From Tetradesmus obliquus (lineage: Eukaryota > Chlorophyta > Chlorophyceae > Sphaeropleales > Scenedesmaceae): a DNA stretch of 64,000 bases. The position numbers were made by a program, and so were the translations under genes. Location: assembly GCA_030272155.1 (NCBI GenBank), contig CP126205.1, positions 4,266,501-4,330,500 on the forward strand. Reading direction: 5' to 3'. Numbering within the stretch: the first letter of the stretch is position 1; each line of letters starts with the position of its first letter. Below the pieces are notes generated by a model. That model had not been told where the DNA came from and ran no database searches. It saw only the letters and a list, made by a program, of their open reading frames with translations. Below, piece after piece: positions 1,605 through 55,083 of the stretch.

Positions 1605-2023
1605 TCAATCAGAGTCGGCGTCATAGTCTGAGTCAGCATCGCCCCCACTGCCTGCCCCAGCATCCTCGTCTGTCTCCCCCCCAGAGCCCCCCTCGCTGCC
1701 ACCACCACCCTCACTCTGCGAGCCGCTGTCTGCTGCTTCTTCATCATCCTCATCATCTTCATCCTCTGTGTACCGCTTGCGCGCAGCTGCTGCTGCTGCA
1801 GATCGCCGCTGCCTGGGGCGGTACGCTTCCTCATCATCATCACTAGCTGCTGCTGCTGCTGCTGCTGCCAGGTCATCAACATCTGCTGCGTCATCATCGC
1901 TGCCTGCTGCTGCCGCTGCTGCCTTGCGCTTGGCAGCCGCCGCCTTAGCTGCTGCCGACCGCTTCGCTGCTCCTGCTGCTGCTGCCGCGTTGTCCTCGTC
2001 GCTGTCATCCAGCAGCACCACCT

Positions 2024-2060
<37 letters not shown>

Positions 2061-5051
2061 GTGCATGGTATAAGCGGCAACTGCAGAAGCAGCAGCTCAC
2101 GGCAACAAAGGAGCACCACAGCATGCACAGGCAAGTATGCGGCAACAGGCTGGGAGGGGTCACCCGCGCGAGAGAGAGGTTTGTTACAGGAGGGGGCGGC
2201 AAGCTATCACCCTAGAGTGCGTCACTTGCCCCTCTTTCATTTCACGTATCGCGCGAGAGAGAGAGACGTCTGTTACAGGGAGAGAGCGAGGTCTATTACA
2301 GGGAGAGAGAGGTCTGTTACAGGGGTGGGCAAGCTATCGCCCTAGAGCGAGTCACGTGCCCCTCTTTCAGCTCACATATCATGAGAACCCGATAGCAAGC
2401 CACAAGATGCAACCAAAGTAAAACTCCAGAGGCATCTTGCAGCCCCTACCTCCCCATAAACCAACAAGTACATGCAGTGCAGCATGTGCGAAGTGCAGCA
2501 CGAAAAGCAGCAGGGTGCTCAAAGCACAGGGCACAAAACGCACAAGGGAAGGCAGGCATGGTCCAAACAGCAAGCGGGATGCACAATGGTGCTGCTTACC
2601 ATAGGTGTTTGGCATGATTGCACCAAGGCACTGCTGTACACACCAGACTGCAGCAAGCAGGAGCACGCGGGTCCGACAGGAGACACTGCATGTGACATGC
2701 AAACTAAGGTGCTACTGCTTCTGCAATCCTCATGGCTGACAAGCACAGAAGCACGCAATGCGACACACAGAGCTGGAAAATCAAGCACAGTGACACACGA
2801 CATGCAACATGGCCTTGCCAGAAAGTGGAAATTGGACAACTACTGACAGCACATCATGTAAAAGCAGGAAGGTCAACTAGAGCGGGGCGCCAGTACAATG
2901 CGCAGCTGTGCTGGATCAGAACGCAAGAACGGGTGATCTCCAGGCACCGCAACACGCCAATGAGCCGGCGCAGCCTCCATTGCCACAAAATCAGCAAGCA
3001 ATTCCCAAAACCGCAAAACTGCCTGCTGCTACAGGGGTGCGCGAGAGAGAGGCAGCGGCACCCTGCAGCCAAGAGCAGCGGGAGGCTCTGCTGCAGCAAT
3101 CAGGAGAGGCAGCGGGCCCTGCCTGGCTGGGTTGCTCACAAGCACCCCCACCCCTTGTAGCTCAGTTGGCAGAGCGGGAGACTGTAGTAGTCACACCAAA
3201 GGCATCTCTAGGTCACTGGTTCGAATCCGGACGAGGGGATAGGTAAACAATAGGTAAACAATGCACCCACCATGATTGGTGCGAGTGTCAAGGTGTCTGT
3301 TTCATTAACAGACAACTTTGCACAGGCAGCAAGCTGTTGCTGGGCCATGAGCTCACCTCATCATCACTGGCAGCTGCTGCTGCCTTCTTCTTTGCGCGCC
3401 CAGCTGCAGCACCAGCAGCAGCAGCAGCAGACTTGCGGCCCTTGCCTGGCGCAGGGCTGTCCAGCATGATCACACCATCGTCATCATCACTGCCTGCTGT
3501 TGCTGCTGCTGCTTTCTTGCTGCCTCCCCTGCCGCCCTGCGCTGCTGCCGACTTGCGCGCTCGCTGCTGCTGCTGCGCACCAGCTGCAGGCTTGCGCCGC
3601 TTTGCCGCTGGCTGGCTGTCAGTGTCCTGGCTGCTATCTGTGGTGACACAAAGATTATACATCGGCACAGCAGCAGCAGCAGCAGCAGGCATGGTGTCCT
3701 GTCAGCAACAGCATGGCTAGCAGAGCATGCCTTGCTCACTTCACTGTGCCAAGGCAGTGGCATGTGCGGCGATGCAAGCACAGCCAGCCTGCCTGCATGC
3801 CACGTATCCGCTTGCAAGTTCTGTTGGACAAGCCAATGCTCCCATTCAGCACAGCATAACCAAATATGCCGCTTGTTGCTGTACCGCTGCTAGCTGCTTG
3901 GGGCACAGCAATCCGAAGCCACTCCTCAGCGGTCCCTCCCATACAGGCTGCGACAACACATGCGCATACAGACTGTTACACCTCAAGTACACACCTGCGA
4001 GGGCGTCACTGCCCTCCTCTTCCTCTTCTGAGTCGCTGCCCGCCAGTGCTGCACGGCTGCGCTTGGCTGCTGCAGCCGCCACAGGCCTGCTCGGCCGCCG
4101 CTGCTGCTGCTGCCGCTGCTTCGCTGCTGCTGCATCGCCGTCGCTGATGCCACCGTCGCTGTTGTCATTATCATCGTCACTGACGTCATCCGAGCCTCCA
4201 AAATCCGACTCGTTGTCTGCTGAGCCGTAGCTGCTGCGGCGCTGCTTCTTCTTCTGCTGCTGCTTTGCTGCTGGCTTCTTGGTGGCTGCTGCTGCGGGCC
4301 TATGGGGTAACAGCAGCAACTACACTCAACGCTGCAGATCCAGTTGTGTTGCATTGCATAGGCTACTCGTGTAAGAAAGGCTGAGCACTTGAACCACATG
4401 CTCTGATTGCTGCTCACCTGTCATGCAAGTCGCCGCCAGCCGTGTCTGTGTTTCACATGGAACGCTGTTCTTCCCACTTCCACAGACCCTGTTTGCATGC
4501 CGTACTGTGCCTACTTACATCGTGACAAGCAGACACATGCCGCACACTGGCCTCAGCTCACCTCTTGGTACCTGAAGCTGCTGCTGCAGCTGCTTCCTTG
4601 CCAGCTGCTGCCGCCTGCTGCTGCTTGCCAGCCTTGCCAGCACTCCTGCCAGCAGCAGCAGCAGCCTCATCCCCACCACCAGCAGCACCTGCTGCTGTTG
4701 CTGCTGCTGCTGTCTCGTCGGCAGCCTGCTGCTGCTTGGGCCGGCCAAAGGCGCCAGTGGCAGCAGGCACATAGCCAGGCTGCCTCTTCAACAGCACCAG
4801 CGCTGATGTGGCAGCGCCCCTGCTGCTGCCACGCGGCCGCCCAGCAACCTTGCTGCTGCCACCAGCAGCAGCCTCGTCAGCAGCGTCCCCTGACCCTGCT
4901 GCGTTTTCTGGTGAGTCACCGCCTGAGGCGTCGTCATCGCTGTCTGCGTCCCCATCGCCGTTTTCGATGTCTGCGTCGTCTGCGTATGACTTGCGCTTGG
5001 TGGCGTTGGCGCGCACCGAGCGGCGCATAGCTGAGCCAGGCGGAGTGGCCT

Positions 5052-5105
<54 letters not shown>

Positions 5106-5511
5106 GCCATATGTTCCGCGGCGCACGCAACCGCTGCAGCGGCAGCAACTCAAGTCGCACGCGCAACAGCAGCAGCATCAAGGCTGACAGGTAGCATGGC
5201 AGGCGCGGCACACACTGCAGCACAAGCTGACGTGGCACACAGCGCTGCCGGCTCACCTGTGTGCCCAGCTGGCACACGCCAAACAGCAGGCACGCTGCAG
5301 CACATGCTGACCCAGCATATAGCGTGGCTGGCTCACCTGTGTCCCTAGCTGGCTGCCCAGCTGGCTGCCATCCTGCTGAGTCATCATCACCACATCACCA
5401 TCAGCAGAAGCAGCAGAAGCAGCGTCCCCATCTAGCTGCGTGGGCTGCTGGCTGCCAGCTGCTGCGTCCTCTGCCGCTCGAGGTGGTGCAGCTGCAGGGG
5501 CAATTGATGCA

Positions 5512-5550
<39 letters not shown>

Positions 5551-6034
5551 TATACGAGTGAGCGTGTGCATGGATCCAAGGCACTGGTGCAATGCAGCAA
5601 TGTGAGCGCCCAGAATCACTGTTGAAGCACTGTTTATCAACACTTTTATTACTTACACCTCGCTGCACAATCGTGGGACACAGCAGCATCAAAACACTGC
5701 ACGCCACCAGCCAAGCAGTACTCTCAGTGCAAGCTGCTCCCTGCCCTGCTCCCCACCTGCGCCGTATGCATAGTCAGGTGCGCCTTCGTGCTGCACAGCA
5801 GCAGCGCCAGACAGCTCCTTAGGCAGCGGCAGCGGTGCTTCGCTGGGGTTGTCCTCAGCGGTGCCAACCCACACGGCGTCGCTGAACACAATCTGAGCGG
5901 CGGTACAGCAGCAGCAGCAGCAACAGCAGTCAGGAAACAGCAGCAGCAATGCGCAAGTGGCGAAGCACAAAAGTGGGATTGTCCTCTGGGGTGCCCACCC
6001 ACAAAGCGTCACTGAACACGATCTGAGGGATGGT

Positions 6035-6072
<38 letters not shown>

Positions 6073-6890
6073 CAGCGGCAGTGAAGGTTCAACAGGGCGT
6101 AGAGCTGTCCAGCAGGCACATTCCCTGCAAAGTGTCGCAGTTGAAAGCGCGTCCCCTGACTGCAGCAGTGACGCTGCAGGACACTCAAACACCTGTGCAA
6201 ACAAACCACACATGTGCCAGCAGCAATACATGCCAGCTGCACGCCACCATCATTATCGCCCAAGAAGGACACCAACACCTGCAGACTTTTTTTTGCACCA
6301 CTGCAAGCAGTGAAAAATTCCCGCCTAAGCGAAGCCGCACCACACTGTCCAACCTTCAATTTCAACGCACCATGTTGTCGAACACGTCCTCCGCCAGCAG
6401 CGCCCCGCCCGGCCCGCCACCCAGCCGCAGCACCAGGTACTTGTTCGCAGGAAAGGCCAGCGTGCCCGTGAACTTCAAGCGACCCGCCGGGAAGTTCATG
6501 TAGAACACGGGGTTGCGCGAGTCCAGGCGCGCCAGCGTGCCCTGCAGTGGGGATGTGGGAGTTTACAGTGGTCCAACACATGCAGCGTCCTTTTGTCTAC
6601 TGCAGCTGCTGCAAGCACACTAGGTGTCAAGCTTGGTTGCTGCAGTGCTGCACAGTGCAGTGCAGTACATGCTGCCAGCTGGCGGCAAGAAGACCTGGCT
6701 GGCGGAAAAGATGGCATTGCAGTGGCGCCTATGTGCTGCTTCCGCTGCTGCCCATGCGCCTGCATGGCTGCCCACACAACTGCTGTGCATATTCAACTGC
6801 TGCCTTGCTGCTGCCTGCTGTACCATTGCTGGCGCGTCACTGGAGGCTGCGGCTTCTGTGGCAGTGTGCCGCTTTTGCTGCTGCCGCTGC

Positions 6891-6936
<46 letters not shown>

Positions 6937-7838
6937 GCTCACCATGGGCCCTGCTGCTGCTGGCGCGATCTTGCAGTTGAACACCATCAGGTACCTTGCA
7001 GGACAAAAGACAGCGCAGATTTTCACGCAACACAATTTTTGGTCAACCCAGCTACCATTTGGGACTTGCAGGACAACTTTCAATGCTGACTCAGCACCCT
7101 GTTGATAACCAACAGAGCTCGCTGCCGCTGCGTTTGGAGTCAATTGGGTTGGACTGAGCCACAGCTGATGTGTCTGGCTGCACAGCTGTGCTGCTGTACA
7201 GCAGGCCAGTAATTATGCCCTTGGCTCTGCTGCTGCTGCTGCTGCTCCTGCAGGTGCCCCGCCCACCTGTTCTTGCGGATGGCGCTCTTCTTGACTATGT
7301 CCTTGCCATCAGCCCGCACCAGCGCTGCAGTGTGCAGAATCGCAAAGGTAAGACAAAGGCATTGACACTGGCGTTGCTACGCCTCCAGAGGACTCTGCTT
7401 GATGTTGCATGTGACGCTGCAGCACAGCCATGTCCTGCATGCAGTTTGTTGTACTGCCTGGGCAGTGCAGCTGCGGCATGTACGCCAGTTGTCCTGCAAG
7501 CGGTGTTGCAGTGCCGTACCCTTGCACAGAGGCAGCTGCTCATTTGACTGCACGGCCTGCTCGCTGATGACCTGCGGAGTGCAAGGAAATAAGCGAGACA
7601 ACAACAGCAGCAGTGACAGACCACAACAAGAAGACAAGCAGCAGCAGGTTTACATCTCTTGCATCAAACCATGCAGGGTCGGACCTTAGCTTATTGCAGG
7701 ATCAATCACAGCTGCAACAAAGCGGGCGCAGCTCACCCCTTTTGCGACTGCCTGCTTGAGCAGCTTGTTGTGCTGCTGCTGTGCCTGCAGCTCCTCCCCA
7801 GTGAGCTCCTTCTCTGCTTGGCCCTTCTTGGGAGCCAT
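1605..7838 (-). CDS. RHL1: RHL1-like DNA-binding protein (topoisomerase VI complex partner), 11 exons
   Basis: RHL1 (HYP7) is a plant nuclear protein that works with the topoisomerase VI complex in endoreduplication. Exons on the minus strand: 7838-7737, 7571-7520, 7324-7267, 6994-6943, 6541-6371, 5892-5757, 5491-5337, 5049-4562, 4299-3995, 3637-3357, 2021-1605. All phases agree and give about 738 residues. Family signatures in order are DGKDIVKKSAIRKNRY (near residue 58), NPVFYMNFPAGRLKF (near 97), the segment EDVFDNM-IVFSDAVWVGT across an exon junction, and EDNPSEAPLPLPKEL. The conserved part ends near residue 190. The rest is a long Ala/Gln/Lys tail with Asp/Glu-Ser clusters, roughly doubling the usual length of about 355. 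The start is the first ATG in an exon that opens MAPKKGQ. Introns contain a tRNA gene and two splice-junction echoes. The core assignment is strong; the low-complexity tail exons rest on phase and composition only. Confidence 0.88.
2160..2395. repeat. short imperfect direct repeats in RHL1 intron 10
   Basis: Two copies of a roughly 100-base unit occur. Each has GAGAGAG purine runs, a GTTACAGG motif, CAAGCTATC-CCTAGAG and TTGCCCCTCTTTCA-like segments. Between them the GAGAGAGGTCTRTTACAGG motif is repeated several times. No coding potential is visible. Confidence 0.6.
3151..3239 (+). tRNA. trnY-GUA: tRNA-Tyr (GTA) with a 16-nt intron
   Basis: The cloverleaf can be drawn directly. The acceptor stem is 3151-3157 with 3232-3238 (seven pairs, one T-G), with discriminator A3239. 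The D stem is GCTC 3160-3163 with GAGC 3172-3175. The anticodon stem is 3177-3181 with 3205-3209, with anticodon GTA at 3184-3186. The T loop is TTCGAAT at 3220-3226, with one A-A mismatch at the base of the T stem. Positions 3188-3203 interrupt the loop just 3' of base 37, the standard place for a nuclear tRNA intron; eukaryotic tRNA-Tyr genes typically carry one. The gene lies antisense inside the last intron of the RHL1-like gene. Confidence 0.93.
5199..5353 (-). repeat. donor-side splice echo of RHL1 exon 7
   Basis: The end of exon 7 and its donor (around 5330-5353) are repeated, diverged, at about 5251-5275 in the following intron. The plus-strand core GGCTCACCTGTGT is kept in both. Each copy is preceded by a similar stretch of about 55 bases. 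The copy lies downstream of the true donor in the direction of transcription. Confidence 0.6.
5965..6060 (-). repeat. acceptor-side splice echo of RHL1 exon 6
   Basis: On the minus strand a (CTG)n tract, a CTCAG acceptor ending at 6023, and sequence encoding IVFSDALWVGTPEDNPT precede the true exon 6 start (5892, encoding IVFSDAVWVGTAEDNPS) by 130 bases. The copy matches for about 55 bases and then diverges into unrelated sequence. It looks like a tandem duplication of the intron-exon border, now a pseudo-exon or an alternative exon. Confidence 0.75.
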
Positions 7839-8820
7839 GGCGAACCCAGCACAGCTTCACTGACTTGAAAATATTATGGCATTCTCAGGTGAAAGAAGCC
7901 GATCGTGTGCATGTGCCAAAGGCCGGAACTGGGGATGTCGCAGTTTGCTCGCGTTCAAAAGCACGCCAGCCCGCCGGATGAACTTGATCTCATTGAAGAT
8001 ACATAAAATACAATTGAAAACTTTGCTTGCTTCAACGTATCAACCTATCATCGCTTGGAGAGTCGTATAGGCATGACAATGTTTTGAGTGGGGAAGTAAC
8101 CTGCAGGACAGTTTGAAACTACAGACCGCAGTAATGCAGCTATGCCTGATCGCTATGCCTCGGACCTCTTACATGCCCTGAATGTCTTACTACAGTGCCG
8201 CCAGGTGCTGCTTTCGCCTGCTCAAAGCTCATCTGCTTGCTGCTGACCAGCGGGCTTTGGCCGTGCTAGCAGGGAGACATAGACAGCTAATAAGTGTACA
8301 TCAGAAGGCATCGTATAAATAAGGAACCGCAATCCTGCAAATCTTTAGCAGTGCTCTTGGCTAGTCATAAACGGTGCGTCCTGTATGCTGAGTCTGCAGG
8401 GCTAAGCTGGGCCGCCCAGCCAGGCTGGCTGGCCGTGGCAATGAGGCAGATTGGCAGTGCTGATGAGCTACATGTGCCTGGGCAGCGCCAGCAAAACGTT
8501 CGATAAGCCATGTGCTTGTACATGACAGCGAATACGTGCTGCACACCGCAACGGTGCCGTATCATTGCGCTTGTGTCAGGCAGCAGGGCTCAGGTGTTTG
8601 CCTTGCTGTCCAACTTGGCTCAATCCAACCCGTGTAACCACCCTTACAACAGAAACAACCTTGATATTGATTCTTTAGACCTGAAAATGTCGTCATCTCG
8701 ATTGTAATCGTCGACTTCCACATGCTTATGACAGCACTGGACGATCCCCACGATCACGAACGCCTGGGACAACCTTCCCATTGGGCTTTGTCCATTCAGT
8801 AGCTGAATATCATAGTTTTG
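7839..8820. other. intergenic between divergent RHL1 and PDZ genes
   Basis: The two genes are transcribed away from each other, so this 980-base stretch should contain both promoters and 5' untranslated regions. I see no convincing TATA box, RNA gene or open frame. Composition is less GC-rich and poorer in CAG than the flanking genes. Confidence 0.5.
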
Positions 8821-10146
8821 ATGCTAGCAACCAGCAGCTGCCCGTCGCTCAGGCGCACTGCAGTGCGTCCTCACGCTGCTGCTGACACAGCAGCACATGC
8901 CTGGCGCAGGCCCCAGCCCAGCAGCAGCAGGCACAGCAGCAGGCAGCTGCGGCTTCGAGCAGCAGCAAGCTCTTCCGCAACAACAGCAGCGTCTGTAGTT
9001 GTGCCCAACCCTCAGGGGCCTGGCTACCCGGCCTTTCAGGTGCAGCTGCAGCTGGCGCCTGGCGCTGAGGCCTACCAGGTGTCCCTGAAGAAGCCGCTGG
9101 GCCTCACCCTCACAGGTTGGAGCAGCAGCTGCATGCTGCGATTCTCTAACCCATTCGAACTCAAAGCAGCTGTGTTTCAGTACAGTCACTGGGACATGTC
9201 GTGTTGACCGTGTTGGGTGAAGCCTGTTGCGTGCAGTGGGAACCTGACAGCCAACAGCAGTGCTTTGGTCATCAGGACACCAGCACCGCCAGTGTCAAAA
9301 CGTTGCAATGCGCACCGATGGGTTTTTGGCTTGCAGCTGCACAGTGCTGAGGGCTCAGCATGCACTGCTCAGCGGCAGCACTGTGTGCTTACCAATGCTG
9401 AGCATAGCATTGGCAAACACCAGGCTGCCCAGCTGTTACCAATACTAGCCGGCTCCAGTTTTGCCGCATTGAGCATGCATGGCGTGCTGCTGCAACTGTG
9501 TTCTTGCCACAGAAAAGAGCGGCAGCATCCTTGTGGATGAGGTGGTGCCAGGTGGGCATGCAGCGCAGGCGGGCGTGCAGGCGGGAGACGTGCTGCTGGC
9601 AACAACAGCTCGGCCGCAGGTGGGGCGCAATCATGTTTCTGGTGCTGAAACCGTGCTGCGGCAGCAGCGGGCTGCTTGCTGAATTGCAACGGATCTGGGT
9701 CCAGCTGCAGTGTAGTGGCATGTGACAGCGATGCTGTGTGATTGGCGGCCGCCACGCCTGGCGGCGGCGGAGCAGCCTGCCATTGCCTGCTGCAGCTGCT
9801 TGCACCTCAGCATGAGCTGTAAATTTAATGTCACGCCAGGTGCAATGTTCAGCTGATGTAGCTGCTCCGTACCAGTGTTTCAGGGCGTGCATCGCTCGTC
9901 AGCTTACTGTGCAAGTGCCTGGCAGCATGTCGGCCCTCTGCAGCTGATTGCAAAGCACCCCTGCTGCTGTCGCTGCTGCCAATACCTGTCCATTCCGCGC
10001 AGGCTGGCAGTGGCGGGACAACGCAGGTGGTGCTGCTGACCACTGCTGGCCAGAGCTTCAAGACAGTCAGTGCAGCGCTGCGCTCCAACACATGTGCGCA
10101 GTGCAACATCCACCTGGTGCTGCAGCGCAGCCCAGCAGCCAGCTGA
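8821..10146 (+). CDS. small plastid-targeted PDZ-domain protein
   Basis: Three exons, 8821-9115, 9513-9619 and 10003-10146, have GT-AG junctions and keep frame, giving 181 residues. The first 55 or so residues are rich in Arg, Ser and Ala and poor in acids, as expected of a chloroplast transit peptide. Residues of about 80-135 look like a PDZ fold: the strand VSLKKPLGLTLT, then ILVDEVVPGGHAAQAG and VQAGDVLLATTA. That resembles the PDZ part of the MET1/ZKT thylakoid proteins, but no TPR region follows. The C-terminal exon adds VVLLTTAGQSFKTVSAALR and two Cys. PDZ domains bind C-terminal peptides; the partner cannot be inferred. The ATG at 8821 is the first in frame. A longer alternative 3' end cannot be excluded. 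Confidence 0.7.
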
Positions 10147-20777: not shown

Positions 20778-20890
20778 TCATTACAAGCATAAGCATCATG
20801 CAACATAATGGGCACTCACATGGCAAGAAGTGGTCCCCCGAAAGGCAAGCATCTTCAGTGACTACAGGTTGCTGCTGGCTAGCTATCACT
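20740..20890 (-). repeat. dispersed repeat family A, copy 3
   Basis: On the minus strand about 100 bases match 61955-62058 with only a handful of differences. They run from GCCTTTCGGGGGACC through GCCATGTGAGTG to GAATGCAATTCGGCAACTTT. The closeness suggests recent movement or conversion. Confidence 0.8.
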
Positions 20891-38721: not shown

Positions 38722-38761
<40 letters not shown>

Positions 38762-39511
38762 CGGCAGCGGCGATGGAGGCACTGGCAGGTGGCTCCGCTG
38801 GCGCTGGTGCAGGTGCTGCACCCGCTGCTGCTGCAGCTGGGCCTGGCTGGGCCTGAGGGCTTCAGCTGCCAGGCCATGGCAGTTTCAGATGCAGCAGACA
38901 GTCCTGTCGTCACTAGTGAAGCCAGTGCTGCTGGAAACACGAGCAGCAGCGGCAGCAGCGCAGTGCCACCTGCCACCACGGCAACAGCAGGGGCAGATGC
39001 AGCAGGCAGCGGAGAAAGTGCTGCGGATGCTGGCAGCAGCGGCTCAGCAGTGCCAGGCACGACCAGGTGGGGCTACCTGCTGCCGCAGCTGCAGCAGAGC
39101 AGGGCCTGGGATGAGGCAGCAGCAGCCTTCGACAGCAGCTGGCCTGGTGTGCTCAGGAGGACTGCTGTTGGTGCGCAGCCGCCAAGATACATAAACGCGT
39201 GCAGTGACAGCGGCAGCGGAACTAATGCAAGCGATGCAGGCACTTCTCAGGAGCAGGCAGTGGACATTGATCAGCTGCGTGCAGATGCGCTGCAGCTGTG
39301 CCGGGCGCTGGTGGCTGCTGCGCCGCTGCCGCTGGTGTGCAACAACCCGTGCTGTGAGAACCTGGAGGGAGCCAGTGACGCAGCAGTGGCCAGCAAGGCA
39401 TGTGCTGGCTGCCGCTGTCGCTACTGCAGCGCAGCCTGCCAGGCAGCTGACTGGCGGCGGCACAGGAAGGGCTGCAAGGCCATGGCGTCAGCAGGGCTGG
39501 TGTGCGGGTGA
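34848..39511 (+). CDS. large MYND zinc-finger protein, paralogue 1, 4 exons
   Basis: Exons 34848-35324, 35744-37084, 37527-38442 and 38584-39511 give about 1220 residues. The first exon needs one frame change near 35165-35195: it stops after SDRARPLP, while the overlapping frame continues CFMQCYNLLADC as the paralogue does. The body is Ala/Leu/Gln-rich and helical. The C terminus is a complete MYND finger, VCNNPCCENLEG, then KACAGCRCRYCSAACQ and DWRRHRKGC, with all Cys and the His in place. MYND fingers bind proline-rich peptides or act beside SET domains. No SET domain is visible, so this belongs to the algal MYND-only group of unknown role. It carries a 31-bp and a 30-bp tandem repeat in coding sequence. 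A paralogue follows in tandem at 40382. Confidence 0.75.
35949..36072 (+). repeat. 31-bp tandem repeat, four exact units, inside MYND1 exon 2
   Basis: The unit begins CACTGCTCAGCC and ends CAGGTGCAG. The length is not a multiple of three, so successive units are read in different frames (QPLLQQVQH, then SAAAAAGAA, then LLSRCCSRC), and the fourth unit is back in the first frame. Three added units are 93 bases, which keeps the reading frame open. Confidence 0.92.
37521..37700 (+). repeat. 30-bp repeat, six units, carrying the MYND1 exon 3 acceptor
   Basis: Each unit is GTGCAGGGGAGGCGCTCGGT followed by CTCATCGAAT, with one base change in the second copy. Every unit holds a possible TGCAG acceptor followed by codons for EALGLIE. 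The true exon may start at any of six sites, all in frame. The following sequence CCVRSPHLKAADML matches the paralogue. Confidence 0.92.
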
Positions 39512-41277: not shown

Positions 41278-44200
41278 GCAGCAGGGCGATCAGTGGGCAG
41301 CCGTCATGTCGGTTGCACACGTGCAGTGCCGTCTGTGGCAGCTGTGGGAGTCAGTGCTGCCTGCAGCACCGGCACGGCTGACATCGCTGCTGCTGCTGCT
41401 GAGCTTGCATGTCATGCCAAAAGTGAGGCAGAGCATGCAGCTGGCATTCAGCAGCAGCAGCAGCAGCAATCCTCTTTGCTCCGGCACAGGCCGCAACCTA
41501 GCTGCGTTGCAGGCAGCTTTGCTGCAGACCGTGCTGGCCATGCAAGGGCCACACGTGCAGCGGCTGCTGTCACAAGCTGAAGAGGATTGTCTGGACAGCT
41601 TTCTAGCTCAAGCGGGCCTGGGGCGACCAGCGCAGGCGCAGCTGATCGCTGTGTGTCACTTGCTGCAGCAGCAGCAGCAGCAGCGGCGGCAGCAAAGTGC
41701 AGCAGCAGGCGGCATTCCTGCCTTCCACGAGTCGCTGCTGCATCTACTGCCAGGCGGCAGCCTGGCCTACTGCAATGCACTGGCAGCAGACAGGACTGGC
41801 AGCAGTGGTGGGCTGCAGGGACCTCTGCCAGCTGCTGCTTCCACAGACACTGCTGCTGCTGCTGCTGCTGCTGCCAGCCACCTGGAGCATGTGGTTGCTT
41901 GGGGCATTGCTGCTGCGAGGCTGCTGTGCATGCACATTGAGCGGTGGCAAGGAATTGAGAGCGATGATGAAGCGGCAGCAGCAGCAGCTGTTGAAAGCCG
42001 TCAGGGGCCAGAGCTGCTGGCAGGCATGGCTCCTGCTGACTGCCTGCAGCTGGCAGTGGAGCTGCAGCTGCTGGCGCAAGCCTTGTTGCAGCAGCAGCAG
42101 CAGCAGCAGGATGCAGAGCCGTTCAAGATGCGGGTGCTGCTGCTGTTAACTAGCAACCAGCTGCTGCTGCAGCTGCTGCACCGCTGCTCAGCAGTGCCTG
42201 AGCACAGCGAGGACCTGCGGCAGCTGTTTGCAGAGCAAGATGCGATGCTGCTGCTGCTGCGCGCGCTGGCTGCGCCAGTGCAGCCTACGTTTTGTGATGC
42301 TGCGATGCGCTGCGGCTGGCTGGCAGCTGGTGGTCTCCGGGTGACCAGCTGCTGGCAGTGCAAAAAGTGCAGCGCATTGTGCCACAAGGTGAGATTGATG
42401 TGTTACTGACATGTTAGTGACACACTGTCATCAGTTTAAAACAGGTGACCATCTGCTGGCACTGCAGAGGGTGTAGCAGAGCTTGACAACAGCAGGAGCC
42501 ACACTGATATCCGTATAACAGTGTTACATGATGGTAACATGTTGATGACGTAGAGTTAGGTACACCAGGTTGAGACAAGCGTGCTGCAGAGGCGTGATAG
42601 TGGTGTTTTGGTGACAAGCTGCCATGTGCCAAAAACAATCTCGGGTTGGTGAACGCGAGGCATGTGGAGGAGGCACTAGCTCTTGTTGTGATGCGCTGCC
42701 ATGCTGCGTGCCAAGGAATCAGCAGCAGCAAGTTTGCTGCCCAACATAGACATGCCACAATCCTAGCAGATGACAAGTCTTCTGCAATAAGCGTACCTAA
42801 ACATTTGCCAAAAATTGTTTTTTCAGCAGATCTATGCAGCGTTCGAGCACCAGGAACAGCACGGACGATGGACAGCACAGCGCCAGTTGACACCCTGGTG
42901 TGCAATCAGCGCCGCATTACAGCCCAGACGCATTTTGCGTGATGTTTGCAGGCACCGCGCAAGCAGCACACCACGCAACCTGCGCCAGCTGTGCGGTGTG
43001 CCTCCTATGCTGGAGTTCTCTGATGTCTGCTGCTGCTGCTGCTCCTGCTGTTGCTGCTGCCGCGTCTTTCCTGTTTTGCCACAGGCTCGCCAGCTGCCAC
43101 AGCAGCGGTTGCTGGCCTGATTGAGAGCTGCGTGCGCAGCCCACACTTCATTGTATCAGACATGCTTGCAGCAGCACAGGTGCTGCGCACTTGCGGGCCT
43201 TCGGCAGCTGACTACAAAACATGCCTGTCAGACAAGGCTGCAGCTGCTGCACTGGCATGCGCGCTAGCCAGTGTGGTGAAGTGCGCTGCTGCGTGCATCA
43301 AGGCAGCAGGCGCAGCGCAGGCGGCGGCTGGTGCTCTGCCTGCTGCAGGCACGGATGAGCATGCAGCCTACTGCTTCCCAGCTGTATTGCCTGATGTTCA
43401 GGCACTGCTCGCCAGCCTCATTGGACTGGAAGCTTCTACGCAGGGAGTAGACGTAGCTCAGCAACTTGGCGGTACAGGCATTGCCGCTGCTGCTGTTGCT
43501 GCTGCTGCTGCTAACCGCGCACTGGAAGCCACCGGGGACTCCCACAGATCATTGGAGGATGTGTACTGCCAGCTGCAGCAGCACAAGGCCGGCTTGATGC
43601 TGCTGGCTGTGCTGCTGGCCAGGTCGCTGGTGGTGCTGGCAGATGCAATGGAGGCAGCAGCAGCGGCAGCAGGCAGCACAGCAGCACAGCTGTTTGCCAG
43701 GTGGGTTGACGTCGTCCTTTGTGGGCCAACAAAAGAGGCCACAAGCGGTGAAAGCGGTGAAAGCGGTGATGGATACTTTGATGATGATGATGATGGTGAA
43801 GCGGTGAAAGCCACGTGCAGATGCCAATGCTCGTGTCCTGACTGCTTCGGTTGGGAGAGTCTCTGCTGCCGACTGTTGCATCTGCACCAGGCGCCGGCAG
43901 CGCCCGTTCAACCTTGCTGCAACCAGCAACAGCACGCAGCATGCTCTGTATACTGCGGCCTCGGCGGTACTGTACCCTTGGCGGTAGTGCAGGCTCATCA
44001 TGTGCCTTGCATGCGTGTGTCACTTGTTGGCACCATGGCACAAATCATGGCTAACATAGCTGCAGGAATGTTTGCGGCGCTTCTTCAACGAGGCAGCAGC
44101 AACGAGGATTACATGTACTACATCGTGCAGTAGTATCTGCTGTCCCCTTGTCTGGGTAGTGAGTGCTCCATAGCCTTACCCATTGTTGAAACGTCTGCAA

Positions 44201-45006
44201 CCAGCATCAGCTGTCAACGTGCTCTGATGTGCTGGTGCCTCCCTCTTGTGTTGCAAACAACACGATTGCCCGACTGCAAGTGTCCATGCTGTGTGCTGTG
44301 TGCTGTGCTCGCATGGCTGCTCTGCAGGAGTGTGATTCTGAGGCCCTCATTTACACACGGCAGCAGCAGCGATGGCAAGCGCAGCTTTGCGAGGCTAGGC
44401 GTGACTGGTGCTGGCAGCGTGCCTGGGCAGTGGCAGCGATGGCAGCTGGGCAGCTTGCAGGGCTTCTCACTGCTGCATGCGCTGCTGCAGCTGCTGCTGA
44501 TGCCGCTGCCAGAGTGCAGCAGCAGCAGCAGCGCAACAGATGCTGCTGGCAGCAGCAATGCCGCGGCGGCTGGCAGCAGCAGCAGCAGCAGCAGCCTCAG
44601 GCAGCCCATGTGGGGCCACCTCCTGCAGCTGCAGCAGAACAGACGCTGGGCAGAAGCAGCAGCAGCTTTTGACAACAAGTGGCCTGACGCTTAAAATGCA
44701 GTCAACACCGCAGTGCAACAAGCAGCCAGCAGCAGCAGCAGAGGTGAGGCGCAAGTGGACATCAGCCAGCTGTATGCCGGTGCGCTGCAGCTGTGCAGGG
44801 CGCTGGTGGCTGCTGCACCGCTGCCGCTGGTGTGCAACAACCCCGGCTGTGAGAACCTGGAGGGAGCCAGTGAGGCAGCAGTTGCCAGCAAGGCGTGTGC
44901 TGGCTGCCGCTGCCGCTACTGCAGCGCAGCCTGCCAGGCAGCTGACTGGCGGCGGCACAGGAAGGGCTGCAAGGCCATGGCAGCAGCAGGGCTGGCATGC
45001 GGCTAA
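40382..45006 (+). CDS. MYND zinc-finger protein, paralogue 2, possibly decaying
   Basis: Exons 40382-40898, 41202-42388, 43085-43700 and 44328-45006 match paralogue 1 in order and phase. The opening is MASRNAARSSST with WLQQRP; the DLLDSLPELLVPDG exon follows; then GLIESCVRSPHFIVSDML; and a C-terminal MYND finger, VCNNPGCENLEG, KACAGCRCRYCSAACQ and DWRRHRKGC, almost identical to copy 1. Two defects are seen. A one-base frame change is needed near 42280-42310 (the frame giving SWWSPGDQLLAV is the one that matches paralogue 1). A TAA at 44692-44694 lies in frame just before the finger (after FDNKWPDA). Either the copy is a pseudogene with a preserved finger, or the region is spliced differently, or the assembly has errors. 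The spared finger argues against old decay. Confidence 0.65.
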
Positions 45007-45648: not shown

Positions 45649-46871
45649 ATGAGCAGCGAAGACGTAGAAGAGGCGCGGCAGCTGCTGTTGCGATATGCAG
45701 GGTCCGAACGAGCAATGCCTACTTGCGATGAACTGCGGCAGTTCCTCAAAGCAGTGCGTATCTCGAGCAACAGAGCAGTAGTGCTGGGCAGGTTGGGTGC
45801 AGCTGCTGATCGGCATCATTCGCTTGCTGCAGAGTCGTGAAGCCAGAATAAGGAACCCAGAGGATGTAGCAAACTACGGATCGTTGGCGCTCAGACACTA
45901 CAAGAGCCAGCTGGCAGAAGAAGAGCGTGAGTACTGCTGATGCTACTGCTGCAAATGCTGACCCGATCAGCATCAACACCTGCCTCTACCAGCAACAAGA
46001 ACAGTGCAATCAGCCATTTGTGGACCCTGCCTGAGAGTTTTCAACACATGTATGCGGCTGCTGAGCATGACCATGATAGCTGCAGGCCCTAGGAATACCC
46101 CTTCAGCAGCTGGCGATGCGCCTGCCGCTGACGTCCCTGTGTTGTGCTCTGCAACCAAGCCAGCCCATCCAGCAACTAAAGACTGCCCACCTGCTGCTGC
46201 TGCTGCTGCTGCTGCTGCTTGGCGTCACCGCAGTGTGGCTGCTGCACGAGCAGGTGGGCATCGCGCTGATGGAGTGCGGCGCGCTGCAGCAGGCGCTGCC
46301 GCTGGTCAAGGCCGTGCTGCTCAAATTCCCAGGCAGCATACGTGCGCGGAGGCTGCAGGTAGGTGCTTTATCATCATATCAGCAGCAGCAGCGCAGCAGC
46401 AGCAGCAGCAGCAGGTCAAACGTCCGGTGCTGCTCAAGTCCCCCGGCAGCATATGCGCGCGGCGGCTGCAGGTGGGGCTCGTGGCCCTTTACGAATATGC
46501 ATTCGCTAGCAGCAGCAGCGGCAGCAGCAGTAGCAGCAGGTCAAGGGTCCAGGCTGCACCAGTAGATAGTATCACTCCCAGCAGTGCACAGCACGGCTGC
46601 ACCCGGCGATGTGCTGCTCTACTGCAGCTGACGTCACAGTAACACCGGCATTTCCGGCGACGGCAGTGCAGCAGCACCAGCAGCACGGGCACCCCAGGCA
46701 GTTGCATTGGTGTATCCACTGGCGGCAGCCGAGTGCAGACTGTACAGCTGTGTGACAGCTGGCGCAGCTGCTGTAGTTCGCGCTCCTGCAGTGCATTTGG
46801 ACGCTGACCTCTGGGGCGGGCGGAGTAGAACATGCATTGTCTGGGTCTGTGTTGCAATGGCACCTTGAACG

Positions 46872-46913
<42 letters not shown>

Positions 46914-49200
46914 GCTGCAGGGCATGTACTACCAGGCAGCGGGCAAGCCCGCGCAGGCGCAGCAGCTGTACGAGGAGCTGCTCAGCGAGCAGCCACACAA
47001 CGACGTCATCCCCAAGCAGCTGGTGAGGGCCTTGAGGGTATATAATTGATCAACATCTATTCTGTTAGCATAACTATTCAAGCACATCAATTCAGAGCTT
47101 GCGCCAGCAGCGCAGCAGCTGTACAAAGAGCTGCTGGCGCTGCAGCTGCATGACACGACGTCATCCCCGAGCAACTGGTGAGGGCCATGCTATGATGCAG
47201 CACGTGCGTGCAGTATGTACAGCTACAGCATACATAGAGCATGCATAGATCCTGTGCATAAAGCCTTCATGTGGCATCCCAAGCAGCTGGTGAGGTGCTT
47301 CAGGCTTTAGCAGTCGTTTATGTAGGAGAGCACATCCCTCGCAGCAGATCTGTTTGAGCAAGCCGCCAGGGCAGCAGCTGTTCAAAGGTCTGGTGTAGCA
47401 GCTGCACGGCATGACAAAGCAACTGGTGTGGCTTGGTATGATTCAAGGTGCCACATATGGCATGCGTGCTGCTGCACAAGGGGCGCGTGGGTCCTGCTTG
47501 TGTGGGGCATGATCAGGCACCCTGCAGCAACTTTCACAGCGTGTCAACTTGCATGGTATGCATACGTCTCTCCCACCAAGAATGAGATTAGTACTGCTGC
47601 AATGACCCTCTTTGCATCTGCTGCTGCTGCGGCTGCTGCTACTGCTGCCCCCTCAGGTGGTGCTGCACCGGGAGGCTGGGGCACTGAGCGAGGCGATTGG
47701 TGTGCTGGTGACGTACCTGCAGCACTACAGCAATGACAGGGAGGCATGGGAGGAGCTGGCAGACTGCTACCTTGAGGTGCGGTTTGAATCTTGTTATGGT
47801 GTGTGTTATAACATGTTGCATTTCAAGTTGCCAAAGGACAGATGTATGATGGTGGCCTGTGGAGCAGCGCACTACAGCAACGACAGGGAGGCCTGGGAGG
47901 AACGGGCAGGCTGCTACCTGGAGGTGCGGTTTGAATCTTGTTATAGTGTGTTATAACATGTTACATCATTATTTATGAAAGGATGAAAAAGTAGTGGTGG
48001 GCTATGGTGGAGCGGCGCCGTAAGGCAACAACAAATTTTTAAATTTTACACTTCACCATCACATGTCACATCATATTGAACCGTTCTGCTGCCGCAGACC
48101 GGCATGTACCGCCAGGCTGCCTTTGCCCTTGAGGAGGTGCTGACCATGGGTGTGCTGGCGCCCCTCACCCTCATCAAGTACGGCGACACACTGGCCAGCA
48201 TAGGAGGGGCGCCACAGCTGCGCACCGCACGCGCCTACTACGCTAAGGGACTGCAGGTGTGTGGGCGTGTCTGGTTTATGTTTCCTTGATGCAGGCTACA
48301 CCTTGGCCTCTACTTTTGTTGCCACAGGCCGTGACGCGCATATGGGTGTGCTGTGGCAGTTTCGTGGGTATGTCTGCCTGGTGTCGTGATGCAGTGCTGC
48401 TCGCCTGTGCCGCTGGCTGCTTTGCTGTTACACCGTGCAGCAGCTGGAGGCAGTTGGTGACTGTTGTTCTGCCCCCACTGCTCCTGTCCTGCTGCTGCTG
48501 CTGCTGCTGCAGGTGTCTGGTGGGCGCAGCGTGCGTGCGCTGTACGGGCTGATTGCTGTGGCCAACCAGCTGCCGGACAAGGTGCGCGCTGGCGCAGCAC
48601 ACGGTGCTTAGCAGCTCAGCACAGCACAGCACAGCATGGTGGGCAGGTTGCACAATCGCATCTTGCACCACATGTTCAGTGCTGCCTGCCTGCTGTGGCT
48701 TTGTTGCTTCCTGACAGAGTGCAGCACAGCATGTCAGCAGTAGCGACAGCACTGGGAGCAGCCGATGTGCATTGGCAGCGCCTATGATGTCAGTCGGCGG
48801 ACAATCGGCTGCCCGACAAAGTGGGGGCTGTTGCAGACTAGCGTGCTAGGTGTGGGGTAGGCTGCGCAAATTGTTGTGTGTGTGTCAGGTAATGCATGAT
48901 GTATTGCGGCACAGTGCGTCTCATGTTTACTTTGGCTGAGATTGGGCCACCGCCCGCCAGAGGGTGCGGCGCAGTAGAGCACAGCAAGGCAGGGCAGCGT
49001 TCAAGATGTTGCTTTCGCACTGTGCAAGATGTGCTTAGAATTGCGCCTGCTGCTGCTGCTGCCTGCAGGACGCTGGCGCGGCCGGGTCAGCTGCGCAGGA
49101 GCTGCCGTCTGCTGCTGCGGAGGCGCTGGTGCAGCAGTACAGCAGGGATGCACCCGACAAGCTGCCACTGGTGAAGCAGGCCCTGGCTCGGTACCTCTGA
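45649..49200 (+). CDS. EMC2: EMC2, TPR subunit of the ER membrane protein complex, 8 exons
   Basis: EMC2 is the cytosolic TPR scaffold of the ER membrane protein complex, which inserts tail-anchored and multi-span proteins. Exons: 45649-45753, 45803-45926, 46234-46358, 46921-47022, 47657-47776, 48098-48256, 48513-48581, 49069-49200. All are in phase, giving 311 residues, which is normal for the family. The first intron is only 49 bases. Family landmarks are IRNPEDVANYGSLALRHY, LWLLHEQVGIALMECG, VLLKFPGSIRARRLQG, a TPR with YYQAAGKPAQAQQLYEELL, YSNDREAWEELADCYLE, MYRQAAFALEEVL, YGDTLASIGG with RAYYAKGLQ, and SVRALYGLIAVANQL. The end is close to plant EMC2. The gene looks intact. Introns 3, 4, 5 and 7 carry degenerate copies of the preceding exon's 3' end, and five acceptors follow (CTG)n tracts. 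Confidence 0.93.
46413..46478 (+). repeat. donor-side echo of EMC2 exon 3
   Basis: The end of exon 3 (FPGSIRARRLQ and donor) recurs about 115 bases downstream as CTCAAGTCCCCCGGCAGCAT followed by GGCGGCTGCAGGTGGGG. A shorter trace (CAGGTCAAGGGTCCAGGCTG) appears at about 46535. Confidence 0.85.
47098..47297 (+). repeat. two donor-side echoes of EMC2 exon 4
   Basis: A copy at 47098-47190 repeats AQQLYEELL through the donor GCAACTGGTGAGGGCC with several substitutions and small length changes. A shorter copy, CCCAAGCAGCTGGTGAGG, lies at 47278-47295. Confidence 0.82.
47864..47962 (+). repeat. donor-side echo of EMC2 exon 5
   Basis: Sequence for HYSNDREAWEE, then CYLE, the donor, and about 35 bases of the intron (GTGCGGTTTGAATCTTGTTA) repeat the exon end at 47721-47815. 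It is the clearest case of exon end plus intron start copied together. Two codons are changed (L to R, D to G). Confidence 0.9.
48790..48832 (+). repeat. donor-side echo of EMC2 exon 7
   Basis: GGACAATCGGCTGCCCGACA followed by AAGTGGG repeats the end of exon 7 (ANQLPDK and donor at 48560-48590), diverged. Confidence 0.65.
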
Positions 49201-50810: not shown

Positions 50811-50887
50811 GGCTACATCAACCTCTCCAGCCGGAACGTACCCAGGCGCACTGCAGATCACCCTAGACTCCAACCATTCACTCGCTG

Positions 50888-53800
50888 CTAGCTGGCCGGC
50901 GCCCCCTCCAGCAGCCAAGTGCAGATGCTGCCCATCAGCGGGAAGAACGGCCAGCTGCTGACCACCACCTGCGCCAGCTGCAGCTCATCCAACAGCATAA
51001 ATATCGCATAGTCAAACAGAATCATGATCTGATCCTCGCGAGCCATATTCGCATCAATCGCCTCCGCGAGGTCCCAGTACTCATGCTGATTCAGCACATC
51101 GTCGAGAAGCTTCTCGTCGCTGAGCAGCAGCGATGAGTCATTGGGGCCCGCCAGCGCCAGCCCGCTGCGCAGCCCGCCTTCTGCGAGGCCGACGCCGGCG
51201 GCGTCCGCAGCCGCAGCGGAGCGGTGGCAGGTCTCCAGCGCACCCTGACACAGCACGCAGGCAGGCAAGAGCACAACCAGGTGTCTTGCGATTGACATCC
51301 AGGTGATTCCAGGTGTCGGGTGATGCTTGGGGTTCTGTTGGGTTACTGGTGTCTAGGTTCAATGCTAATTTTCTTGAAAAGGCTTGGGGTGTGCGTAATG
51401 CTTGCAAACATGATGGTGTAGTCCCTTCTGTTGCCGCTCCATTGGGGCGCGGGGCCGATGGCGTTGATGCTATGGCTTGATGGGTAACATGATGATGGTG
51501 ATGATGGTGGTGATTCCAGGCAAGCAAGCAAACAAGAATTGCACACGCTGCTGGGCGGTTTCTTGGTGCACACAATGCGCAAGTTCAACCTTCACAAGCA
51601 CCTCAACACAGTATGGCTGCAGGACACCCACAACAACAAAGAGCAGCAGCAGTGCAGCTGCGATGCACGCCAGCAATGGCCAGCAGCCCCCACCTGCAGC
51701 GGCCGCATCAACCGCCCCCGCTCCCCGTTGACCTTGGCCAGGCTGGTGCATGCACTGTGCAGCTGCCGCAACTGCCACACAAACTGGCCCTCACATGCAG
51801 CCGCCGCATGAGCAGCCCTCGCTCCCCGTCAACCTTGGCCAAGCTGGCGCAGTACAGGGCAGCCAATGCAATAAATAAGCCATGCATATACACACCAGCC
51901 AGCAATGAGTAGCAGCCCCACCTGCAGCCGCCGCATGAGCAAGCCCCGCTCCTGGTTGACCTTGGCCAGGCTGGCGCTGTATAGGCTCCACGCGGCAGCC
52001 AGGCGCTGGGCCTGCCCGGGGCGCAGCGTGAGCTGGCCCGCCACCACGCGCCAGATGGCCGGCTCGATGCTCTCGTGCTTCTGCAATAGGGAGAAGCAAC
52101 AAACAGGAGGCATGAGAATTGTAAGACAGGTGTCGATGTAAACAGATGGAAAGTGGAAGGGAAAACTCAGCACAAGGAGTGTGCCTTGGCTGAAGCCTGG
52201 AATTTTAACGGGCCTGTCAAAACTCAGCAGCCTCGCCACCACGCGCTAGATGGCCGCCTCGATGCTCTCGTGCTTCTACGCAAGAGAGAAAGAAGCAGGT
52301 GTGATACCAAGAAAATCGACGGTGAGAGGGGGTATGACTGGCTGGCTGGCTGGCTGACTGACCGGCTGGCAATGCACACACACACACACAATCAGGGATT
52401 CAGCGAAGCTGCTTTATTCCCGACGGCTGCACTTCTGCTGCGCCTTACACAGCCCACTCACCCCTGTGAGCAGGTTGATGGCAGGCAGTGCTGGCGGCAG
52501 CCGCTCATCATTGCCCAGCGCCAGGAACTCACCCAGCCTGCAGCAGCAGCAGCACATGGCAGCAGCGGCAGCTATGTTGAAGTTGCCGCCTCTCCAGGGT
52601 TCATTCATCAAGCGAGCAACATCGCTTGGCAGTCGCGCGCGTTCAGCAGACCTGCATACCCAACAGATGCAGATGTGACGAGCAGGAGAGTGACGAGTGC
52701 AGATATTACAGCAGAACAAACAGCACAGCCCGCACCTGAACGGAGCTGGGGGTATGGCCACCCCCAGTGCTGCTGCCTCCTCAGCACTCATGCAGCCCAC
52801 GGCAGCAGGCAGCACGGTGCTGTTGCCACCAAACAGCCCGGGCTGCTGCTGCTGCAGCAGGGACGCTAGCTGCTGCAGAGCTGCTGCTGCTGACGCCACA
52901 TAGGCCTTGTACCTGCAAGGGGGCAAGCACGGACTGCTAAAGGTTTGTATGGGGTTTGCTTAATTATATCATGGCAGCACTAGCCCTGCACCTAACCAAA
53001 CATAGATGCATACATGCATAAGCTGTCACAGTTATTCACGTGCCGCAACTCACTGACACGCAGCATGCAGGACGTGCACTAGCAACCAGTACTACTGCAG
53101 CCGCACTGCAAGCAGATCCTAAGCTGTGTCTCAAACCACATCTCCACATCTACAACCCCATCACCCACCTGTCCATAGAAGCAAACACGTATGAGCCGTC
53201 ACAGTTCGTCAAGTGCCGTCACTACCCCACGCATAGCACATGCCTGCAGCAGCAACCACCATGCGCGGCTGCCGCTGTGCAAGCAGATCTTAGGCGGTGT
53301 CTCAAGCTACACCCAGCTAAACCAAAACGCCCGCCACCCACCTGTCCAGCAGCATGTGCACATCCAGCTGCTCAGGGCCCAGCAGCGGACCTGACACGAT
53401 GCGCTGCACAGGAATCCTGCTGCTGCTGCTGTTGCTGATGCCAGCCCAGTCAGGATTATTGTTGTTTGCAGCCGCATCACCACCAACAGCATCATCATCA
53501 CCAGCAGGGTTGTTCAAGTCAGGCTCGGCAGCAGCAGCAGCATGTTGATCTGCACCCTGCTGCTCGCCTGTGACAGCCGCAAGCAGTGCCGATACGTCAG
53601 CTGCTGCACCCGGCTGCTGTTGCTGCTGCTGCTGCTGCTCTGCCACTTGCAGCGCCGATAGCTGCGCCACCACTCGCTCCTGAATGACAATGGTGCTCTC
53701 CAGGGCTTCCTGCTTGTGTTTTAGTGCCACATTCTCCTGCTGCAGTGCTGCCAGCTGCGCCAGCTTGGCTGCAACTGCCGCCTCCATCTCCTCCAGCTGC

Positions 53801-54239
53801 GGCAGGCAGAAACATTACAGCGTCATGACAGTGATACAACATAGTGATGTAACAGTTGCACATCTTACATGACGCTGAGGACAGGTGCCACTGCCGCCTC
53901 CATCTCCTCCAGCTGCACGGGAAGAAAGATAACAGTGTTATGCCCATCATACGTGATAGTGTTATGAGGGCGGGGACATGACGATGGTGCAACAGTACCA
54001 CTGCCACCTCCATCTCCTCCAGCTGCAGCTATCAGCCACACCAAACCCGTTTGACTACAGTATCAGTGCTACATACCAGCTGCTAGGTGTTGCACTGCGC
54101 ACCTCGTTCCGCTTGCGGGCGCGGTACTTCTTGAGCGCTGCATACGCCGTGCTGTACGCGCCGTCAGCCTTAGGCGGCCGCCCCCGCCGCCCCTTGCGCG
54201 CCGGCTCTGCCTCTGCTGCTGCATCCTGCTGCTGCTGTG

Positions 54240-54277
<38 letters not shown>

Positions 54278-55083
54278 AGCTCTGTGGTCATCACCGCCTG
54301 CTGCTGCTGCTGCTGCATCAGTAGGGCCTCCTGCGCCTGCTGCATGACCAGCTGCTGGTGCAGCAGCTGCTGCAGGTTCTCCTCCCCACCAACCAAGCTG
54401 CTGCGAGGAGGAGTCCTGCTGCCGCTGCTGCTGCCAGGCACACCAAATGTCCCTACTGCTGAAAGTGGTGCTGCTGCTGTGACATCAGGTGTTGCAGGCC
54501 TTACAGCTGGTGCTGCTGCTGCTGCAGCTGGGGTGCGAGGTGCTGTTGCTGCTCCCAGCAGCAGCTCAGGAGAGAGGCCTGAAAAGGGGCTGGTGAGGGC
54601 AGTGACGGAGGCAGCGCTGCTTGCAGGCAGCTTAGGAGCAAACTCTCCGTATGATCTTGCTGCTGTCCCTGCTGCGCCACCAAGGGGAGAGGCTGGCTGT
54701 GCAGCGACAGGTGGTGCTTGCTGCTGCTGCTGCTGCTGGCCTGCAGCAGTGTGCTGCAGGCCCTCAGGGAACAGCACGCCCATGTTGCTGCTGGCCTCTG
54801 CATCGCTCCATGCAAACATGTCCTGGATAAGCTGCAGCAGCAGTAGCAACAGCGGCAGCAGCAGCAGCGCAGAAGCAGCAGCATGGGGATTTACTCAAGC
54901 CGTTCACAGGCCAGCAGGCAGCATGTGAAACATTGAATGTGGTGCCGATGATAACAATCACGGCCAGCAGTTGTGCTGCTGTGTAGCTGCTGCAGCACAT
55001 ACCTTTTCAAAGGAGTCAGCAGTACCTGCCCGGGCCTGCATGCTCAGGTACTGCGCCCCCTGCTGGAAGGCAGATCGCTCCAT
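50888..55083 (-). CDS. bZIP-like transcription factor with AT-hook, 7 exons
   Basis: Exons: 55083-55003, 54831-54103, 53796-53342, 52912-52736, 52651-52462, 52080-51922, 51244-50888. All phases agree, giving 715 residues. After a Pro/Ser/Gln-rich region there is an AT-hook core (GRRGRPPKADG, about residue 245), a basic stretch ALKKYRARKRNE, and a leucine-zipper-like coiled coil (LAQLAALQQENVALKHKQEAL). The usual Asn of bZIP basic regions is not at its place, as far as I can align it. The C-terminal half has AIWRVVAGQLTLRPGQAQRL, LAKVNQERGLLMRRL and a helical end (IMILFDYAIFMLLDELQLAQ). That resembles the long C-terminal regions of chlorophyte bZIPs, from memory. It is probably a nuclear DNA-binding regulator; target unknown. 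Introns and the 3' flank are full of splice echoes. Confidence 0.78.
51688..51845 (-). repeat. two donor-side echoes of bZIP-like exon 6
   Basis: The plus-strand segment with CTGCAGCCGCCGCATGAGC and TTGACCTTGGCCAGGCTGG (true copy 51921-51981) recurs at 51768-51850 and 51690-51752. The copies lie downstream of the true donor in the direction of transcription. Confidence 0.88.
52215..52290 (-). repeat. acceptor-side echo of bZIP-like exon 6
   Basis: CGCCACCACGCGCTAGATGG, then CTCGATGCTCTCGTGCTTCT, repeats the start of exon 6 (52040-52085) on the upstream side. Confidence 0.85.
53100..53345 (-). repeat. donor-side echo of bZIP-like exon 3
   Basis: GCAAGCAGATC-TA and GTGTCTCAA (near 53108 and 53279), each followed by CACCCACCTGTCCA (53161 and 53336), form two units about 175 bases apart. 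The second CACCCACCTGTCC is the true donor of exon 3. Confidence 0.65.
53885..54030 (-). repeat. two acceptor-side echoes of bZIP-like exon 3
   Basis: The exon 3 start, CTGGAGGAGATGGAGGCGGC on the minus strand after a CAG acceptor, lies at 53796. Copies lie at about 53916 and 54024, each with its own GCAG. They match for about 30 bases and then diverge. Confidence 0.85.

Follow-up and report, generated by a model that had tools for sequence, protein, structure and literature searches.

Local copies of exon edges in the introns of the green alga Tetradesmus obliquus: strong polarity and mainly synonymous divergence

In the genome of the chlorophyte Tetradesmus obliquus (GenBank assembly GCA_030272155.1; 104.66 Mb, 17 contigs), short copies of exon edges, each consisting of a splice site and the adjoining stretch of exon, are found in the introns next to the real junctions. 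The copies were first noticed in a window of 64 kb, the whole stretch of DNA from which this analysis started (contig CP126205.1, here C15, positions 4266501-4330500). They are real and extend beyond this window: about 1 in 7 exon edges (29 of 205 in the edge test described below) has a copy nearby. Copies of the acceptor with the exon start nearly always lie upstream of the real exon and copies of the exon end with the donor downstream, and the differences between copy and exon are concentrated at third codon positions.

The sample consisted of the window and 20 random 10-kb stretches (L009-L028), 264 kb in total. Exons were predicted with a purpose-written, self-trained exon-chaining gene finder, which replaced an earlier hidden Markov model finder and a first chaining version that both predicted too many tiny exons. 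Homology backs some of the genes only, and in a few arrays the junctions, taken from predicted gene models, are doubtful. The final gene finder recovered the exons of an S6K-like kinase that had been delineated from translation and homology. Pfam support comes from matches to the protein kinase domain for this gene (Pkinase, 3.5e-74), to EMC2 (9e-15) and to MYND (8.3e-6) in the window, and to Pyr_redox_2 (L019), Aldedh (L024), DEAD (L027, a DEAD-box gene) and alpha-amylase (L017) in the random stretches. The fragments of two other window genes (RHL1, 261 aa; bZIP-like, 106 aa) and one exon in L021 had no Pfam match; the names RHL1 and bZIP-like, adopted from the original prediction or from general knowledge, are thus presumptive.

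Among local sequence pairs less than 1.5 kb apart in the sample, 286 are direct and 2 inverted, and 122 of the 205 direct pairs located in predicted genes include a predicted junction. In the edge test, 36-base starts, middles and ends of 108 internal exons were compared with the flanking introns, low-complexity 36-mers being dropped. Of 101 exon starts, 19 were matched in the intron that precedes them and none in the intron that follows; of 104 exon ends, 10 were matched downstream and none upstream. The middles, used as a control, yielded 1/101 upstream and 4/101 downstream. The polarity claimed in the original prediction holds in this sample. No match was found in 3,060 comparisons with the flanks of other loci (six rows, four of 505 and two of 520 comparisons), and no inverted match in any of the six rows of the edge test.

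The pairs on predicted junctions group into 72 arrays, low-confidence exons included, with 66 acceptor copies upstream and 11 downstream, and 53 donor copies downstream and 8 upstream. On confident exons (log-odds for a true exon above 10; 53 arrays), 91 copies are on the expected side and six on the wrong side; the latter are all in L019, L020 and L024, where copies were apparently predicted as exons, and two of the 53 arrays have wrong-side copies only. Arrays are present at 44 of the 236 junctions of such exons in the random stretches and at 9 of the 61 in the window. Arrays on confident exons occur in 10 of the 20 random stretches, in line with the earlier suggestion that many unrelated genes are affected. 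The density is uneven, ranging from 7 of 18 tested edges in L027 to none in L011, L014, L018 and L022.

The main copy statistics are based on 51 of the 72 arrays, those that combine log-odds above 10 with right-side copies; copy totals vary among tests with the minimum required on the exon side (18-30 bases). Exon parts were delimited as gap-free, so that the gap count of 0 in them carries no weight. Three arrays whose junctions are doubtful or whose sequence is of low complexity (L019 D 1498, L024 D 8854 and L021 A 6991) were additionally left out of the stratified private-change, frame, synonymous-divergence and codon-saturation tests but kept in the counts by codon position, of stops and frameshifts, of private changes in 20 arrays, and by stratum.

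The typical copy comprises the splice consensus and an exon stretch with a median length of 48 bases (5th-95th percentile, 23-86), and in 47 of the 51 arrays the nearest copy is 80-260 bases from the real junction (median 147). Over the 36 exon bases beside the junction, mean identity is 0.89 (91 copies), whereas intron-side identity, calculated outside the consensus, has a mean of 0.57, compared with 0.51 and 0.49 in two nulls. This difference rejects a plain intronic minisatellite, the units of which would evolve uniformly and show no link to exon edges. In 66 of the 90 copies kept, intron-side homology ends no more than 9 bases from the junction, and in 10 it reaches 20 bases or more; across all 221 junction alignments, irrespective of exon confidence, the corresponding counts are 161 and 31. 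The spacers between copies are nevertheless partly related to each other: of 157 pairs taken within arrays, 62 lie above the 95th percentile of pairs between loci, with at least one such pair in 27 of the 51 arrays, which indicates that many arrays consist of tandem units. Spacing can be regular, as in L026 (111, 111, 111), L027 (about 122-142, repeated) and the S6K array (a 125-base unit), and in L027 five of seven copies have a common end at exon position 85-86. Within the S6K array, the copy at -105 matches the exon almost perfectly but is joined to a spacer unrelated to that of the exon, and the copies at -230 and -105 have an identical spacer and differing exon parts; exon part and spacer thus have different histories.

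The divergence of the copies resembles that of coding sequence. Differences between copy and exon at codon positions 1, 2 and 3 amount to 59/1523, 41/1525 and 259/1515 (0.039, 0.027 and 0.171 per site), and the ratio of non-synonymous to synonymous divergence per site (N/S) is 0.16 overall and 0.06-0.25 across strata of copy type, rank, identity, length and distance, whereas about 0.5 would be expected if the copy were neutral and the exon constrained. The pattern is also apparent in changes private to one copy, which arose on the branch of that copy (position 1, 33/846; position 2, 19/850; position 3, 61/753; 53 copies in multi-copy arrays). After stratification by CpG, other GC and AT sites, the odds ratio of position 3 to position 2 is 4.3; base-composition bias as the sole cause of the third-position excess is thereby rejected. 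In all 20 multi-copy arrays, the private changes on copies are 68 synonymous and 62 non-synonymous, compared with 18 and 2 on the real exon, so that copies are constrained only in part, and less strongly than the real exon. Individual genes depart from the general trend: L017 has an N/S of 0.71, and the arrays of S6K, L021 (8864) and L026 are, taken singly, near neutral. A stop codon, frameshift or lost splice dinucleotide is present in 22 of 89 copies, although a few of these look like mis-set junctions, so many copies are not functional exons now; even these 22 keep the position pattern (0.056, 0.050 and 0.168).

The synonymous divergence between copy and exon is nearly constant at 0.20 per site (73 copies), with a dispersion of 0.79, whereas simulated dispersion was 4.05 for exponential and 2.03 for uniform ages. 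Copies in the same array differ from one another at 0.25 synonymous changes per site (48 pairs, one of which is at zero), and only 5 of the 73 copies have no synonymous change relative to the exon. Saturation of codon usage, which could have produced such constancy, was rejected, the fraction of differing codons being 0.17 compared with 0.46 for independent draws. Breaking of identical runs by selection is at most weakly indicated (mean run 21.2 versus 22.6 expected; lower than expected in 67% of 63 copies). Altogether, the exon part of the copies appears to be held or replenished in a coding-like manner while the intron spacer is lost, so that the copies are probably not simply inert debris.

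The best explanation, to which we give roughly even chances, is local duplication followed by recurrent exchange between the copies and the exon. Short local direct duplications would repeatedly place an exon edge together with its splice site into the adjacent intron, and some arrays would later be enlarged by further tandem duplication. The polarity would follow because a copy spares the message only if it lies on the intron side of the real junction. Duplication is presumably the origin of the copies, and it is probably the real exon rather than the copy that is normally spliced. Copies and exon would then exchange sequence by recombination between direct repeats, including exchange between diverged alleles, so that the copies would be drawn again and again from functional exons; this last step is the weakest part of the explanation. 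Several points weigh against it. Simple tandem duplication predicts matching spacers beside exon parts that are 90-100% identical, contrary to the low intron-side identity. Mosaic copies, expected under exchange, are rare (3 incompatible site pairs of 347 over 12 arrays). The observed N/S of 0.16, compared with about 0.5 expected within one haploid lineage, implies that exchange within a lineage would not suffice and calls for either diverged alleles or direct constraint. Finally, the exon calls on which the comparison depends are self-trained, with homology for part of the genes. Duplication with exchange is ranked first as the preferred reading, with direct constraint and import of diverged alleles as its rivals.

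Direct selection on protein-coding function would follow if the copies supplied alternative exon edges to some transcripts, which we regard as unlikely. The low N/S in every stratum is what such use would produce, and the scores of donor copies resemble those of real donors (median 6.8 versus 6.5), but acceptor copies score below real acceptors (5.5 versus 7.4). At the far end of donor-type copies, acceptor-like sites (score of at least 4) have a frequency of 0.20, compared with 0.03 in spacer, although far-end splice sites are not clearly more common than sites within the exon part itself. An internal AG|GT in L027 and L016 would allow in-frame replacement of the exon edge by the copy. In-frame replacement pairs are apparently enriched relative to a control, but the control is biased by AGGT, and in-frame splice pairs with a score of 4 or more exist in only 13 of 83 copies and in none of those of S6K. 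Edge replacement via an internal AG|GT or a similar in-frame pair is thus possible for this minority, most clearly in the donor array of L027. The frame preference in the copies is that of the real exon, beyond the copy the three frames are equal (7/7/7), and some copies carry stops and frameshifts. For frame-preserving cassette or mutually exclusive exons, the apparent positive signal reflects codon structure, the real exon having the same bias, and the sequence-based tests give this variant no support.

Alternatively, diverged haplotypes, a past hybrid or lost homeologues could be the source of the copies. Unequal repair or exchange, confined to exons as the only parts that can still be aligned, would then have left duplicated exon edges separated by the intron of the other parent. 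This reading, likewise of low probability, accounts for homology that stops at the junction and for the synonymous differences, and it is favored by the near-constant synonymous divergence, with its dispersion below both simulated values. However, copies within an array are as distant from each other as from the exon, so that many sources would be needed rather than two; introns at a synonymous divergence of about 0.2 should still align; and queries with the L027 and S6K array regions revealed no close second copy of either gene at the sensitivity of that search.

The original prediction had attributed the copies to plain tandem duplications, which would decay neutrally in introns. Part of this proposal stands, namely the direct, local, junction-spanning copies, their polarity and the related spacers in 27 of the 51 arrays, and the single arrays of S6K, L021 (8864), L017 and L026 look near neutral. 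The rest does not fit. With an intron-side stop within 9 bases in 66 of 90 copies and an exon side of 23-86 bases, random tandem breakpoints are unlikely; the mainly synonymous differences, including the third-position excess in copy-private changes, indicate that the copies are not inert and decaying; and spacer and exon parts diverge very differently, with few young copies (5 of 73). Neutral decay is accordingly quite improbable. Assembly chimaeras between diverged haplotypes or strains would leave the same signature as a hybrid but are very improbable given arrays of up to seven kept copies, regular spacing, common breakpoints and contigs of 3-11 Mb.

Of the five window genes in which the pattern had been reported, three show it, and the 16 copies counted in them come close to the at least 17 that had been counted by eye over all five. 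The S6K-like kinase (plus strand; exons 28791-29027, 29248-29432, 29911-30111 and 30553-30736, identified by translation and by PDB and Pfam matches) has eight copies, all with the stated polarity. The exon at 29911-30111, which is covered by the PDB and Pfam kinase matches, is the source of three upstream acceptor copies and one downstream donor copy. Two of the former include the first 47 exon bases (29549-29602, 91% identical to 29904-29957, and 29674-29727, which has a 125-base unit in common with the former copy), and the third includes the first 44 and is almost identical to the exon (29799-29852); the donor copy is at 30216-30270 (source 30066-30120, 91%). The exon at 30553-30736, supported by translation and homology, is the source of an adjacent tandem copy of intron end, acceptor and exon start (30375-30484; source 30488-30601, 83%) and of three copies of exon end and donor, at 30892-30937 (source 30696-30741, 89%), 30974-31140 (source 30638-30804, 89%, including about 68 intron bases) and 31179-31221 (source 30707-30749, 86%).

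In the EMC2 gene (46.2-49.2 kb of the window), three plus-strand copies with the expected polarity are present, one of an exon end at 46391-46476 (source 46281-46363, 80%) and two of exon end and donor at 47110-47189 (source 46957-47034, 81%) and 47869-47966 (source 47722-47821, 90%). The bZIP-like gene (50888-55083, minus strand) has five, again with the expected polarity: two acceptor copies (offsets -116 and -226) at 53886-54029, upstream of the exon 53342-53796; one acceptor copy at 52226-52297 (85%), upstream of the exon 51922-52080; and two donor copies (+127 and +228) at 51669-51858, downstream of the latter exon.

The matches in the other two genes are weak or minisatellite-like. RHL1 (1605-7838, minus strand) has two edge-match rows, of which one is hardly above the null (26 versus 25 of 30) and the other is on the wrong side, an exon end being matched upstream, and an additional single BLAST pair at 5211-5353. 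MYND1 has a perfect 31-base minisatellite at 35948-36078 with a weak edge match beside it and nothing else. Three more wrong-side rows in the window belong to predicted mini-exons that resemble copies themselves.

Several other features of these regions can be mentioned. About 300 bases at 2300-2600, near RHL1, are a repeat with near-identical, often clustered matches on many contigs (68 genome matches, the window included, for a 996-base query covering it), and ARAGORN predicts a tRNA-Leu at 3151-3239 in the RHL1 region, on the opposite, plus strand. Segments of the MYND gene at 38341-39507 and 43599-45002 are repeated about 5.3-5.5 kb apart, with up to 92% identity over 249 bases, which is consistent with tandem gene duplication. 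Minisatellites in the window are located at 32410-32724 (36 bases), at the MYND1 site (31) and at 37520-37701 (30), the last two being nearly perfect. Two segments in inverted orientation and 41 kb apart (20752-20846 and 61964-62058; 97% identity) are a dispersed repeat, and the gene predicted at 21299-22736 has a match in the chlorophyll a-b binding family, which marks the organism as photosynthetic. In L022, the predicted genes at 1936-4858 and 6799-9721, 4863 bases apart, have the same size, score and protein start and are likely a very recent tandem gene duplication; no exon-edge copies were found in this pair (0 of 4 edges in each gene).

Several known systems bear comparison with the exon-edge arrays. 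Tandem exon duplication with mutually exclusive splicing also gives rise to coding-like, diverged neighboring copies, but the copies described here are partial exons with one splice site, and nothing points to a frame-preserving second site. Introners are likewise widespread intron-associated repeats; however, for the two array regions queried (L027 and S6K) introner-like mobile introns were rejected as an explanation, since these regions match elsewhere in the genome in exon parts only and their spacers are not dispersed. The original prediction had known of no named description of the pattern, yet the basic event has been published: in a potato RdRp gene, a tandem duplication across an intron-exon boundary is described, with a new intron and inserted exonic sequence backed by RNA reads (PMC4974935). 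As in that gene, direct duplication of the 3' side of the intron and the 5' side of the exon doubles the acceptor and the exon start. In contrast to the single gene of that account, many genes are involved here, with multi-copy arrays and donor-side copies, mostly unrelated spacers, mainly synonymous differences, and copies recognized from sequence. Intron gain via tandem duplication has been reviewed (PMC3443670) and similarly involves duplicated splice signals near exons; that model duplicates an exon-internal AGGT, whereas here the duplicated element is an existing junction, and few copies have a usable internal AG|GT. Arrays of exon edges with such polarity or synonymous divergence were not found in the literature searched (titles and the beginnings of abstracts, with few subscription journals covered).

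This one genome would allow statistical study, rather than the study of single cases, of intron growth, decoy splice sites and intron gain through boundary-crossing duplication. The mainly synonymous divergence, if confirmed, would need selection or exchange acting on sequence that is usually called non-coding. In a further reading of low probability, the introns might keep arrays of spare exon edges with a splice site, constrained as coding sequence and yet not ordinary exons, that are maintained by exchange or by standing in for the real edge. Such a genome-wide reservoir of spare exon edges, if it exists, would represent a new mode of gene-structure evolution.

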